Shown piece by piece: positions 7,609 through 24,155 of a stretch of 64,000 bases of DNA. The DNA lies in contig NZ_AP022586.1 of NCBI RefSeq assembly GCF_010731695.1, forward strand, positions 4,402,001 to 4,466,000. The letters run 5' to 3'. Each line of letters opens with the position of its first letter. Within the stretch, counting starts at the first letter, position 1. The translations under genes were made by a program, and so were the position numbers. This stretch comes from Mycolicibacterium litorale. Its GTDB lineage: Bacteria > Actinomycetota > Actinomycetes > Mycobacteriales > Mycobacteriaceae. Below the pieces are notes generated by a model. The model did no database searches and was not told where the DNA came from. It was given only the letters and a program-made list of their open reading frames with translations.

Positions 7609-10485
7609 GTGACCGAGTCCCCGACCACGCAGCCCGACCGGGCAGCCGATGCCGACACCCCGCAGCACCGCTACACCGCAGAGCTCGCGGGGCAGATCGA
7701 GCAGACATGGCAGCAGACGTGGGCGGCCGACGGCACCTTCAACGTGCCCAACCCGGTCGGTGAGCTGGCGGCGCCGGACGGTGTGGTGCCGGTCGACAAG
7801 ATGTTCGTGCAGGACATGTTCCCGTACCCGTCGGGGGAGGGCCTGCACGTCGGGCATCCCCTGGGCTACATCGCCACCGACGTCTACGCCCGCTACTACC
7901 GCATGACCGGCCGCAATGTGTTGCACGCGTTGGGTTTCGACGCGTTCGGCCTGCCGGCCGAGCAGTACGCGGTGCAGACCGGCACGCATCCGCGGATCCG
8001 CACCGAGGCCAACATCGTCAACTTCCGCCGCCAACTGGGCCGGCTGGGGCTCGGCCATGACACCCGGCGCAGCTTCTCGACCACCGACGTCGACTTCTAC
8101 ACCTGGACGCAGTGGATCTTCCTGCAGATCTACAACGCCTGGTTCGACCGTGACGTGCAGAAGGCCCGCCCGATCGCGGAGCTGGTCGCGGAGTTCGAAT
8201 CGGGCGCGCGCGCGCTCGACGACGGGCGCCGGTGGTTGGACTTGAGTGCCGGTGAGCGCGCCGACGTCGTGGACTCCTATCGGCTGGTGTACCGCGCCGA
8301 CTCGATGGTCAACTGGTGCCCCGGGCTGGGCACGGTGCTCGCCAACGAAGAGGTCACCGCCGACGGCCGCAGCGACCGCGGCAACTTCCCGGTGTTCCGG
8401 AAGCGTCTGCGCCAGTGGATGATGCGCATCACCGCCTACTCCGACCGCCTGCTTGAGGACCTGGACGTCCTCGACTGGCCGGAGAAGGTCAAGACGATGC
8501 AGCGCAACTGGATCGGCCGGTCGACCGGCGCCGTGGTCTTCTTCGGGGTGCCTTCGGCCCCTGACGCCGGTGACATCGAGGTGTTCACCACCCGGCCTGA
8601 CACGCTGTTCGGCGCGACGTATCTGGTGCTCGCGCCCGAACATCCGCTCGTCGAGCAGTTGACGGCCGCGCAGTGGCCCGACGGCGTCGACACCCGCTGG
8701 ACGTTCGGCGCGGCGACGCCGGGGGAGGCGGTCGCGGCCTACCGCACCTCGATCGCCGCGAAGAGCGATCTGGAGCGCCAGGAGAACAAGACCAAGACCG
8801 GCGCGTTCTTGGGCGCTTACGCCCTCAATCCGGCCAACGGCCAACGGGTTCCGATCTTCATTGCCGACTACGTGCTGATCGGGTACGGAACCGGCGCGAT
8901 CATGGCGGTGCCGGGCCACGATCAGCGCGACTGGGAGTTCGCACAGGAATTCGGGCTGCCGGTGGTCGAGGTGATCGCGGGCGGCGATGTGTCGGAGGCG
9001 GCGTACGCCGGTGACGGTGAGCTGGTCAACTCCGACTACCTCGACGGGTTGGACGTGGCGGCGGCCAAGGCGGCGATCACCGAGCGGCTGGTCGCCGACG
9101 GCCGCGGGCGGGCGCGGGTCGAGTACAAGCTGCGCGACTGGTTGTTCGCCCGCCAGCGGTACTGGGGTGAGCCGTTCCCGATCGTCTACGACAGCGACGG
9201 CCGTCCGCATCCGTTACCGGAATCCGCGTTGCCCGTTGAGCTTCCGGATGTGCCGGATTACTCGCCGGTGTTGTTCGACCCGGACGACGCGGACAGTGAA
9301 CCGAATCCGCCGCTGAACAAGGCCACCGACTGGGTGCACGTCGAGCTCGATCTCGGTGACGGGTTGCAGACCTACACCCGTGACACCAACGTCATGCCGC
9401 AGTGGGCGGGCAGCTCCTGGTACGAGCTGCGCTACACCGATCCGCTGAACAAGGAAGCGTTGTGCGCCAGGGAGAACGAGGCGTACTGGATGGGCCCGCG
9501 GCCCGACGTCCACGGCCCGCAGGATCCCGGGGGAGTGGACCTCTACGTCGGCGGTGTGGAGCACGCGGTGCTGCACCTGCTGTATTCGCGGTTCTGGCAC
9601 AAGGTGCTCTACGACCTGGGCCACGTGAGTTCGCGGGAGCCCTACCGCCGGCTGGTGAACCAGGGCTACATCCAGGCGTTCGCGTACACCGATTCGCGCG
9701 GGTCGTATGTGCCTGCCGCCGAGGTCGTCGAGCGGGACGGGAAGTTCTTCTGGCCCGGCCCCGACGGTGAGGTCGAGGTCTTTCAGGAGTTCGGCAAGAT
9801 CGGCAAGAGCCTGAAGAACTCGGTCTCGCCGGACGAGATCTGCGACAACTACGGGGCCGACACCCTGCGGGTCTACGAGATGTCGATGGGCCCGCTGGAG
9901 GCGTCGCGGCCGTGGGCCACCAAGGATGTCGTGGGCGCGCACCGGTTCCTGCAGCGGGTGTGGCGGCTGGTGGTCGACGAGCAGACCGGTGCGGTGCGCG
10001 TCGCCAATCACGAGGCGCTCGACACCGACACGCTGCGGGTGTTGCACCGCACGGTGGCCGGCGTCTCGGAAGACTATGCGGCGCTTCGTAACAACACCGC
10101 GGCCGCCAAGCTGATCGAGTACACCAACCACCTCACCAAGGAGGGGGTGACGGCCCGCGCGGCCATCGAACCGCTGGTGCTGATGGTCGCCCCGCTGGCC
10201 CCGCATCTGGCCGAGGAACTGTGGCGGCGGATGGGCAACGACACGTCGCTGGCGCACGGGCCGTTCCCGGTGGCCGATCCGCAGTACCTGGTGACCGACA
10301 CCGTCGAATACCCCGTGCAGGTCAACGGCAAGGTGCGCAGCCGCATCACCGTCGACGCCGATGCGGACAAGGGCACGCTCGAGGCGGCGGCGCTGGCCGA
10401 CGAGAAGGTGCAAGCGTTCCTGAACGGCGCGACGCCGAGGAAGGTGATCGTCGTCCCCGGCCGCCTGGTCAACCTCGTCATCTAG
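7609..10485 (+). CDS. leuS: Leucyl-tRNA synthetase
   Basis: A class I aminoacyl-tRNA synthetase of 958 residues that charges tRNA-Leu in the cytoplasm. The HIGH-type motif is HVGH (80-83) within [17 protein letters not shown]. The CP1 editing domain follows in the middle third ([21 protein letters not shown], then [15 protein letters not shown]). The KMSKS-type loop reads KIGKSLKN at about 730, before the anticodon-binding helices and the small C-terminal domain. The GTG start is supported by the full N-terminus and by a -10 element placed for leaderless transcription. The stop is followed after one base by a 49-bp palindrome. Confidence 0.97.
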
Positions 10486-10486
10486 C

Positions 10487-10535
10487 GATTTCGGTGTAGT
10501 TCGTTGCGCTCGCCGCAATCAACTACACCGAAACC
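10487..10535. repeat. 49-bp palindromic repeat, left copy
   Basis: Arms 10487-10508 and 10514-10535 pair at 19 of 22 positions around the loop CTCGC; the core is TTTCGGTGTAGTT/AACTACACCGAAA. It starts one base after the leuS stop and contains the TTG start of the next gene. It is about 86 percent identical (42/49) to the copy at 11316-11364. It may also serve as the leuS terminator. Confidence 0.85.
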
Positions 10536-11328
10536 GCCCGATGTGGAACCGGTTGAGCCCAGGTGGCGTCCTTTTGACGTGCTCAACGAGTATCTACGTC
10601 GACACGATGGCGTCTTGACACTGGATCAGGCCCTCGAGGTCGGGCTCAGTCGGTACGCCGTGAACAGGCGAGTGAAGTCGGGTCAGTGGCGTCGGTGTTC
10701 GCGTGGCGTGTACTTCGTCGACGACCGGCCGTTCACCGACGCGGCGCGCCTGCGCGCGGCGGTATGGGGTTACGGCGGCCACGCCGTCGCTAGTGGGCTG
10801 GCCGCCGCCTGGTGGCACGGCCTGACGATGTTCGCCCCGGATGTCGTCGAGGTGACCATGCCCCGCAATGGCAGCGGAAGGAGCCGACCGGGATCCAAGC
10901 TTCGCCGGCGTGATCTGGAGTCCGCCGACATCGATGTGCAGCGCGGCCTTCGGGTTACCGCCGTCCCGCTCACCGTCATCGAAGCAGCGGTGCGGATCCG
11001 CGGCGGCGCCAAGATCATGGACCGAGCGCTGCAGAACAACATGGAGCTCCGCCAACTCTGGCACGCACACCTACGTAACAAGGGCCGCTACGGCTCACCT
11101 GCGGCGCGAATCTTGTTGCAGGCGGCCGACACCGGTGCGCACTCCGAAGCGGAACGACTCTTCATCCGGTTGACTTTCCACAGTGAGTCGGGCGATTTCC
11201 ACCACGATCGTGTCCGGCAGAACGCCATCACGCTGCTGGGCTGGCAGGTGTTGAGGTTCACCTGGCTGGACCTCACCGAGTATCCCGAACGGGTGATCGC
11301 CACCCTTCGCACCGTGATTTCGGTGTAG
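10504..11328 (+). CDS. AbiEi-domain protein with truncated DUF559-type nuclease remnant
   Basis: 274 residues if the TTG at 10504 is used; GTGs at 10543 and further in are alternatives. Residues about 25-100 form an AbiEi-type winged-helix domain (YLRRHDGVLTLDQALEVGLSRY, then CSRGVYFVDD and GLAAAWWHGL). The tail (HSEAERLFIRL, then FHHDRVRQNAITLLGW and VLRFTWLDL) is the flank of a DUF559/Vsr-like endonuclease. The segment that normally lies between (D-x-n-ExD core) is absent, suggesting an in-frame deletion and a nuclease-dead protein. The start and stop codons both lie inside flanking palindromes. It could be an orphan antitoxin-like regulator. The family call is by motif, the deletion by comparison from memory. 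Confidence 0.7.
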   Translation: MRSPQSTTPKPPDVEPVEPRWRPFDVLNEYLRRHDGVLTLDQALEVGLSRYAVNRRVKSGQWRRCSRGVYFVDDRPFTDAARLRAAVWGYGGHAVASGLAAAWWHGLTMFAPDVVEVTMPRNGSGRSRPGSKLRRRDLESADIDVQRGLRVTAVPLTVIEAAVRIRGGAKIMDRALQNNMELRQLWHAHLRNKGRYGSPAARILLQAADTGAHSEAERLFIRLTFHSESGDFHHDRVRQNAITLLGWQVLRFTWLDLTEYPERVIATLRTVISV

Positions 11329-11364
11329 ATCGTCGCGCTCACCGCAACCGACGACACCGAAATC
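11316..11364. repeat. 49-bp palindromic repeat, right copy
   Basis: Arms 11316-11337 and 11343-11364 pair at 17 of 22 positions around the loop CTCAC. It begins just before the stop codon of the AbiEi-domain gene, which lies inside it (11326-11328), and ends 3 bases before the stop of the convergent SDR gene. It is a direct copy of 10487-10535, with seven differences in 49 bases. Confidence 0.85.
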
Positions 11365-11366
11365 AC

Positions 11367-12035
11367 CTAGCGCGGGCGGACGATCACCTCGTGGATGTGC
11401 GCGTCGAGCGGGGCGTTGACCGCGTCGGCAGTCACCCGCGCGACTGTCTCGGCGCTCAGGAAGTCGGTCGGGTTGTAGTCGCGGCCCTCGTAGGCCCGCA
11501 GATCTTGCTGCATCTCGGTGGCGATCCGCCCGGGGTGCACGGACGTGACCCGCAGCCCGGGCTCGTCGTTGCGCAGGGAGTCGGCGAACGACCGCAACGC
11601 GAACTTGCTCGCCGAATACGACGCCAGCCCGGGTGAGGCGTTGATGCCCGACCCGGAATTGATGAACACCACCTGACCGTCCGAGGCCGCCCGCAGCGCA
11701 GGCAGGAGCGCCAGGGTCAGCGCCACTGCGCCGATCACGTTGACGTTCATGGTGGCCCGCCACTCGTCGACGGTCGACTCGGCGACCCGCGCCGGATAGG
11801 CGACACCGGCGTTGTGGATGAGCACGTCGAGTTCGACGATCGGTTCGACGGCCGCCGGGATCGCGTCGATGTCGTCGAAGTCGATCTCCCACGTGGTGGC
11901 CCCGAGCCGCTGCGCCACCTCGTCGAGCTGCGCCGATGGGCGCCCGGCGAGGAACAGCGTGTGGGTCGGCGCCAGCGCCGTGGCGACGGCCGCCCCGAGG
12001 CCGCGGCCGGCGCCTGTGATCATCGCGGTCGGCAT
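11367..12035 (-). CDS. Short-chain dehydrogenase/reductase (SDR)
   Basis: 222 residues. It has the N-terminal Rossmann motif TGAGRGLG (8-15), the NAG motif (HNAGVAYPA), a Ser at the catalytic position (VVFINSGSG) and YSASKFA with the Tyr-Lys pair, so it should be an active NAD(P)-dependent oxidoreductase. The substrate is unknown. Its stop lies 3 bases from the right-hand palindrome. It is divergent from the glucosylglycerate hydrolase gene across about 50 bp, and the two may share a regulatory region. Confidence 0.87.
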   Translation of the reverse strand: MPTAMITGAGRGLGAAVATALAPTHTLFLAGRPSAQLDEVAQRLGATTWEIDFDDIDAIPAAVEPIVELDVLIHNAGVAYPARVAESTVDEWRATMNVNVIGAVALTLALLPALRAASDGQVVFINSGSGINASPGLASYSASKFALRSFADSLRNDEPGLRVTSVHPGRIATEMQQDLRAYEGRDYNPTDFLSAETVARVTADAVNAPLDAHIHEVIVRPR

Positions 12036-24095: not shown

Positions 24096-24155
24096 GACGA
24101 AACTGCGGTGAGATCGCCCCTTGGTCGGGAATCGCGATCTCACCGCAGTCTCGGC
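24096..24155. repeat. 22-bp-arm inverted repeat between ino1 and the hydrolase gene
   Basis: Arms 24096-24117 and 24134-24155 pair at 20 of 22 positions (core ACTGCGGTGAGATCGC and its perfect complement) around a 16-base loop. It lies 12 bases beyond the ino1 stop (minus strand) and 13 bases before the hydrolase start. It probably terminates ino1 transcription, or it may be a dispersed palindromic repeat. Confidence 0.75.

Follow-up and report, generated by a model that had tools for sequence, protein, structure and literature searches.

The locus considered here raises the question of why a single gene should be held between two copies of one palindrome. It lies in a 64,000-nucleotide stretch of the Mycolicibacterium litorale genome (contig NZ_AP022586.1, positions 4,402,001 to 4,466,000 of the forward strand), referred to below as the window, in which an AbiEi_4/DUF559 gene is found between leuS and a short-chain dehydrogenase (SDR) gene. 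The gene is flanked by twin 49-bp palindromes, direct repeats which are identical at 42/49 positions. This arrangement had been noted in a preliminary description of the window and is confirmed at 10487–10535 and 11316–11364 of the plus strand. Gene and palindromes very probably form a mobile unit with cognate palindromes. As far as sequence comparison goes, the case is carried by the bracketing of the gene, the fixed palindrome length, the correlation between palindrome and protein, the dispersal of the palindromes, the ending of homology at them, and the presence of different palindrome families at the same site.

Palindromes across the gene family

Homologous loci were compared in Mycobacteriaceae, using the best 80 of 172 confirmed relatives. 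A generic palindrome scan returned 37 palindromes in the 39.7 kb made up of the 250 bp flanking each gene on both sides, compared with 6 across the remainder of the 80 loci. When the scan was refined, the top-scoring stretch measured exactly 49 bp at 79/80 loci upstream and 60/80 downstream, compared with 15/400 control windows. The palindrome threshold was set just above all controls but one, so that 1/400 control windows passes, and this lone window is itself a solitary palindrome of the same type. Above the threshold are 70/80 loci upstream, all with 49 bp, and 52/80 downstream, of which 51 have 49 bp. The preliminary description had proposed a search of mycobacterial genomes for the 49-mer and for its association with such genes. 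The exact form of the window palindrome occurs in 8 of the 100 genomes searched, its own included and all of the same genus, and AbiEi/DUF559 genes are flanked by both palindromes as 49-mers at 47/80 loci. The left palindrome ends 44–46 bp ahead of the match start in 61/70 loci and the right palindrome overlaps the stop region at most loci. Conserved parts are the ends, GATTT...AAATC, and a central CG...CG, with much else variable.

Twins within one locus are identical at 40.2/49 positions compared with 28.7/49 for copies from different loci, and in 31/47 loci a copy's closest match is its own twin. Palindrome distances are correlated with protein distances across 70 loci (Mantel r 0.389), with 0/2000 permutations as high. 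Covariation is also seen, as 18/24 stem pairs display changes on both sides in 20 copies, a number reached in 2/500 shuffles; these copies were hand-chosen as well paired, which biases the pairing percentage upward. Between palindrome and start, 70/81 loci carry an element of the form GGAAC-N15-18-CGT, and GGAAC itself is found in 71/81 compared with 5% of 2000 random 50-mers. From the look of the element, we take it to be a putative extracytoplasmic function (ECF) sigma promoter for a leaderless mRNA.

Palindromes of this kind are dispersed through whole genomes. The window's genome contains 24 copies of the pattern at ≤3 mismatches, the window's two included, and none with a reversed control. 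A generic 49-mer pattern, counting each palindrome once, gives 24 for this genome and 29, 27, 37, 20, 27, and 12 for six others picked for holding family loci with clear palindromes, with 0 for the control; two of the matches listed are non-palindromic. Dispersed copies share 39.5/49 positions with their own genome's gene pair; shuffling the genome labels lowers this to 31.7, and none of 5000 shuffles exceeds 33.9. Among the pairs of six genomes, that of the copy's own genome scores highest or ties for 97/129 copies, taken from the window's genome (G000) and G101–G105 and excluding copies that bracket known genes, the two non-palindromic matches, and G100 with its 29 matches. Pairs with unit-like spacing and no known gene were seen in M. 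neoaurum (G104), M. elephantis (G101), and G103, and 2/3 held bracketed genes (L257 and L258, 64 and 67% identity). Once these genes are added the own genome is best for 104/129 copies, and 16/23 copies in M. neoaurum and 18/22 in M. elephantis reach ≥36/49 against a gene pair from the same genome.

Some palindrome pairs surround other genes. Two in the window's genome (L004 1499–2583; L021 and L266) each enclose an ordinary-looking host gene in the manner of a composite unit, by eye a luciferase-like oxidoreductase and an SDR. Comparable pairs around SDR-like and CoA-transferase-like open reading frames (ORFs) are found in M. agri (L261, L264).

Sites and movement of the unit

When related genes at different sites are compared, homology starts ≤6 bases from the left palindrome and stops ≤6 bases from the right, with the locus pairs L110/L117, L023/L042, L091/L062, and L091/L070 as examples of homology ending at the palindromes. 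Judging from these limits, the mobile unit is palindrome-gene-palindrome, ~0.9–1 kb in length. The earlier suggestion of a mobile unit ending in hairpins is supported by these limits, by the palindrome-protein correlation, and by the dispersal, and so is its companion idea of a gene product that would recognise the hairpins. An upstream neighbour could be labelled at 78 of 82 loci (the 80, the window, and L023), giving 14 labels with sites grouped by best coding neighbour. The most frequent sites are next to purC (29 loci), after leuS (16, window included), at an alpha/beta hydrolase (9), and at an amino-acid permease (7). On a quick gene tree these labels require at least 18 changes compared with a shuffled mean of 45.1, or somewhat fewer once label up10 (4 loci) is corrected; up10 probably represents the purC-side neighbour read in antisense, so both counts (14 labels, 18 changes) are upper values. 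With fewer label changes than the shuffled mean, the gene appears to be mostly inherited in place and to move sometimes.

The leuS tail was located in 61/61 genomes and 30 loci were compared. The gene follows leuS in 5 of these genomes, a single palindrome without the gene in 6, a decayed palindrome in 1, and no palindrome by scan in 18. Both palindromes were seen at 4 of the 5 genes, the remaining locus being broken off by a contig end, and at L140, one of the 18 palindrome-free sites, a palindrome-like stretch is visible by eye. Sites with a single palindrome and no gene after leuS, which the preliminary description had thought worth seeking in relatives, therefore exist, although it had also counted palindromes at this site without the gene against a mobile unit. 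We interpret the solitary copies instead as a mobile palindrome in its solo state: they come from different families, and 18 other genomes have no palindrome at this site. The own genome's gene pair is the best match for 4/7 of them.

Thirteen palindrome sites of the window's genome were also compared with G002, the closest by leuS tail (95%), and G028, in what amounts to one three-genome comparison with flanks found for 11 sites in each. G028 carries palindromes of other families at 6/11 positions, with both flanks in place at 3. At the seven shared positions, leuS included, the copies of the window's genome and of G028 are alike at 28.6/49, and unrelated positions give 28.3. Agreement among copies of the window's genome is 42.1/49, and among those of G028 34.1, rising to 39.7 when one odd copy is set aside. 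That copy matches G028's own gene pair at 22, and the other six of the seven reach 40–43. These values suggest either that positions persist while their sequences get replaced, or that the same spots are hit again. In G002 no family gene was found at E 1e-45; its sites comprise two where a palindrome of the window's family has decayed, three with deletion scars, and six without palindrome, and 24 bp separate the end of leuS from that of the SDR gene. Where the gene is absent, then, palindromes look decayed. The G002 scars lie inside palindromes (L211, L204, L207), for example GATTTCGGTG joined to CCGAAATC, and may represent hairpin deletions or the repair of cuts.

The encoded protein and a proposed mechanism

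The window protein matches AbiEi_4 in Pfam (E 3e-11), with MTES_1575 and DUF559 matches under the curated cut-offs; AbiEi_4, DUF559, and MTES_1575 are the families returned for it and five others, and NCBIfam has no match for the window protein. Residues 1–184 display the fold of the AbiEi/Rv2827c-like DNA-binding part. For residues 187–285 the closest solved folds are I-Bth0305I and NGO0050, which tie, indicating a Vsr-like nuclease. The nuclease residues E192, D219, E230, D232, H237, and D246 are invariant across 59 homologues. Compared with close homologues, the window copy has an in-frame gap of 36 nuclease-core residues at ~11172/11173, leaving a domain remnant at 11161–11328 of the plus strand, and D219, E230, and D232 (L042 numbering) are among those gone. 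With these missing from the alignment, the window copy has most likely lost cutting while retaining its DNA-binding part. It most likely persists as a relic, inactive or regulatory, at a site that was inherited. Intact copies of the gene are present in many species, and a plasmid search matched 16 records, one covering ≥80% of the query.

The mechanism which we lean towards is homing-like copying. The ends of the ~0.9–1 kb element would be its two copies of the 49-bp palindrome, predicted to be what the encoded protein binds and targets and also the unit that is copied. A dimer would use its AbiEi-like part to recognise both arms (23+3+23 bp, the published AbiEi arrangement, which sums to the 49 bp found here), and the C-terminal EDxHD/Vsr-type domain would cut the palindrome. 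Repair of the cut would then use another palindrome, or a palindrome-gene-palindrome unit, as template. In this way palindromes would spread, the resident family would overwrite others where they stand, and palindromes would sometimes acquire the gene. Binding, cutting, repair-driven copying, and autoregulation by the upstream copy are what we infer.

Several observations weigh against this mobile unit or its copying. The upstream palindrome fails the threshold in 10/80 loci and the downstream one in 28/80, and of the 29 purC-side loci 27 have the upstream palindrome and 10 the downstream. The twins fit better as direct repeats in 23/47 loci and as inverted repeats in 20/47, with 4 ties, so their orientation is uninformative, and no target-site duplication was recognised. 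The unit-like-spaced pair L260 and five pairs with other spacings contain no such gene, and 11/45 copies in M. neoaurum and M. elephantis match no known gene pair there at ≥36/49. Among the solitary leuS palindromes, those of G034 and G035 mismatch their own gene and that of G020 ranks it third. Three of the six positions shared with G028, leuS apart, have one flank only, and what is taken as replacement could also be repeated insertion at preferred spots. Finally, the donor's own palindromes are intact, and the donor protection of classical homing is therefore missing.

Within the window, the left palindrome is built as 24+1+24, and single-strand DNA folding of the two copies gives z of -7.2 and -4.5. 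The left-copy pattern, run on both strands, matches the left copy alone (0 expected from 100 shuffles), and a scored palindrome scan of the whole window finds the two 49-mers only. The left palindrome starts one base beyond the leuS stop (10483–10485) and the SDR stop codon lies 2 bases beyond the end of the right one, as the preliminary description had it. It had also placed both ends of the gene inside the palindromes, which is correct for the stop codon (TAG 11326–11328, right copy) and not for the start: TTG 10504 in the left copy merely opens a mechanical ORF, and homologues begin at a conserved V/M-L-N-E-like start, here GTG 10579. The gene thus spans 10579–11328 on the plus strand by Pfam and homologue alignment, and its GTG is 43 bases 3' of the left palindrome, directly after the putative leaderless-type promoter element GGAAC-N17-CGTC (10545–10570, plus strand), the one common to most aligned loci. 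Both neighbours are host genes outside the unit. The left (7609–10485, plus strand) we presume to be leuS, the name used in the preliminary description, Pfam giving a tRNA-ligase anticodon domain in its C-terminal part; the right (11367–12035, minus strand) was called an SDR from its ORF and a domain scan. An Rfam scan gave nothing useful, its one sub-threshold snoRNA-like match being taken as chance.

A second, more distant AbiEi/DUF559 subfamily is found in 46/61 genomes, with 2–12 matches per genome in the genus, and also has palindromes near its genes, most commonly of 56–57 bp. Against 200 control windows, palindromes exceed the 99% control level on the upstream side of 21 of 50 loci, on the downstream side of 18, and on both sides of 11; leaving out the duplicates L188=L168 and L198=L173, the counts are 19, 17, and 10 of 48. 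A few of the matches resemble ordinary terminators. Palindrome types at these loci (L016, L017, L153–L202) include CGAGTGTG, CGAGACT, and CCGAACGT. The window itself contains a solitary 56-bp palindrome (CGAAACTGCGGTGAGATCG...CGATCTCACCGCAGTCTCG, 24098–24153) between two minus-strand ORFs, and its arms resemble the pair around the second-subfamily gene L186 of the same genome, so that the window also carries a solo copy of the second palindrome type. Further afield, a plasmid DUF559 homologue of Tsukamurella tyrosinosolvens (L152 3885–4960, 45% identity) has twin palindromes of different sequence, TGCGGTGGAT...ATCCACCGCA, each weak alone, and GGAACC...CGTCC in the interval from palindrome to start. 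The palindromes of G077, from another family of the order, are weak and sub-threshold.

A broader proposal is offered tentatively. The homing site itself may be mobile DNA: the 49-bp palindrome's own AbiEi-EDxHD nuclease would cut it, and other copies would serve as templates for rewriting it. Every palindrome of a genome would thereby be converted along with the resident nuclease, and the gene would hop from one palindrome to another; the second branch would do the same with ~56–57 bp, and the design would reach Tsukamurella. If this is true, systems like those of repetitive extragenic palindromes (REPs) evolved twice, the second time around an unrelated enzyme, and a large group of mycobacterial genes labelled DUF559 or type IV toxin-antitoxin (TA) AbiEi gains a role. 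It would also provide a natural example of one nuclease driving short palindromes to evolve in concert across a genome, pointing to an undescribed kind of mobile element in environmental mycobacteria. How such tiny palindromes move can be tested directly, given that site, enzyme, cognate pairs, palindrome-free sites, and genomes whose palindromes have decayed are available.

Alternative explanations and known systems

Transposition like that of REPs and their RAYT enzymes is an unlikely alternative. The nuclease would act on extruded hairpins or single strands and paste palindromes and unit into new 3'-end sites, with no homing repair. According to published accounts, RAYT genes are flanked by two palindromes and co-evolve with cognate palindromes scattered between genes (PMC2817692, PMC3733652, PMC3116915), the same architecture and co-evolution as found here. 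Strong hairpins and palindrome-free leuS sites also fit, as does the placement of 24 inspected sites, 14 between convergent genes, 9 tandem, and 1 divergent. However, Pfam gave no Y1/HUH match in the window protein or five others, the fold matches being to Vsr and I-Bth0305I, and a GTAG/GTGG head beside the palindrome is absent from 22 flanks and from the consensus. Replacement accounts better for the finding that related species carry different families at one position. G-T mismatches (128) are as common as A-C ones (123), giving no sign of selection on one strand, such as for an RNA hairpin. An improbable reading is that of a site-specific DNA-binding regulator, in which the upstream palindrome is an operator at the ECF-type promoter, the dispersed copies are a regulon or decoys, and the nuclease is secondary. 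It is consistent with the upstream palindrome ending ~10 bp before GGAAC, with the retained binding part and lost cutting core of the window copy, and with the predominance of the upstream copy beside purC; AbiEi and Rv2827c are reported to autoregulate through inverted repeats. It leaves the downstream twin and the presence of the unit at several sites unexplained, though, and is at odds with the single divergent site and with the invariance of the six nuclease residues.

The AbiEi models of PADLOC match the protein, as would be expected of a defence or self/non-self system whose nuclease spares or attacks DNA according to its palindrome. This is nevertheless very improbable: the window's neighbours (tRNA-ligase part/leuS, SDR, glycoside hydrolase) have no PADLOC match and include no AbiEii partner toxin, those of the other 80 loci not having been scanned, and tblastn of homologue L042 found no match in 50,697 phage records. 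That ordinary terminators or REPs flank the gene by chance is hardly credible. The palindromes do usually lie right at stop codons, but their concentration at this gene family, their fixed 49 bp, the similarity of twins, and the correlation with the protein all oppose chance. Simple terminators unrelated to such genes, the outcome which the preliminary description regarded as fatal, are not what the 37 palindromes beside genes and 6 elsewhere suggest, and no intrinsic terminator (GC stem and T-run) was found in 10300–11500.

The papers listed in literature searches included no mycobacterial DUF559 work and none seen to name such a palindrome system, though coverage of subscription journals was thin and an earlier description is possible. 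By its sequence features, the system seems to resemble both REP/RAYT and homing endonucleases without having the defining features of either in full. Like REPtrons, it has a gene between two palindromes, dispersed cognate copies, and co-evolution; the enzyme is AbiEi-DUF559 (Vsr/I-Bth0305I-like) where RAYT is an HUH tyrosine transposase, and the palindromes are longer, 49 bp or commonly 56–57 bp in the second subfamily versus 20–40 in REP. The EDxHD homing endonuclease I-Bth0305I, whose fold the nuclease part shares, has a long dimeric target near 60 bp (PMC3943268). It differs from the protein here in that an AbiEi-like DNA-binding part is attached to the latter, no intron or intein is seen at the locus, and palindromes are intact on both sides of the gene. 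AbiEi binds 23+3+23-bp inverted repeats (PMC7319586). Residues 1–184 share the fold of this antitoxin and of Rv2827c, whereas a nuclease domain is attached here, no partner toxin stands beside the window gene, and the sites are dispersed. The nuclease fold is likewise that of Vsr, the very short patch repair endonuclease, to which the present proteins add a DNA-binding part and the palindromes that accompany it.
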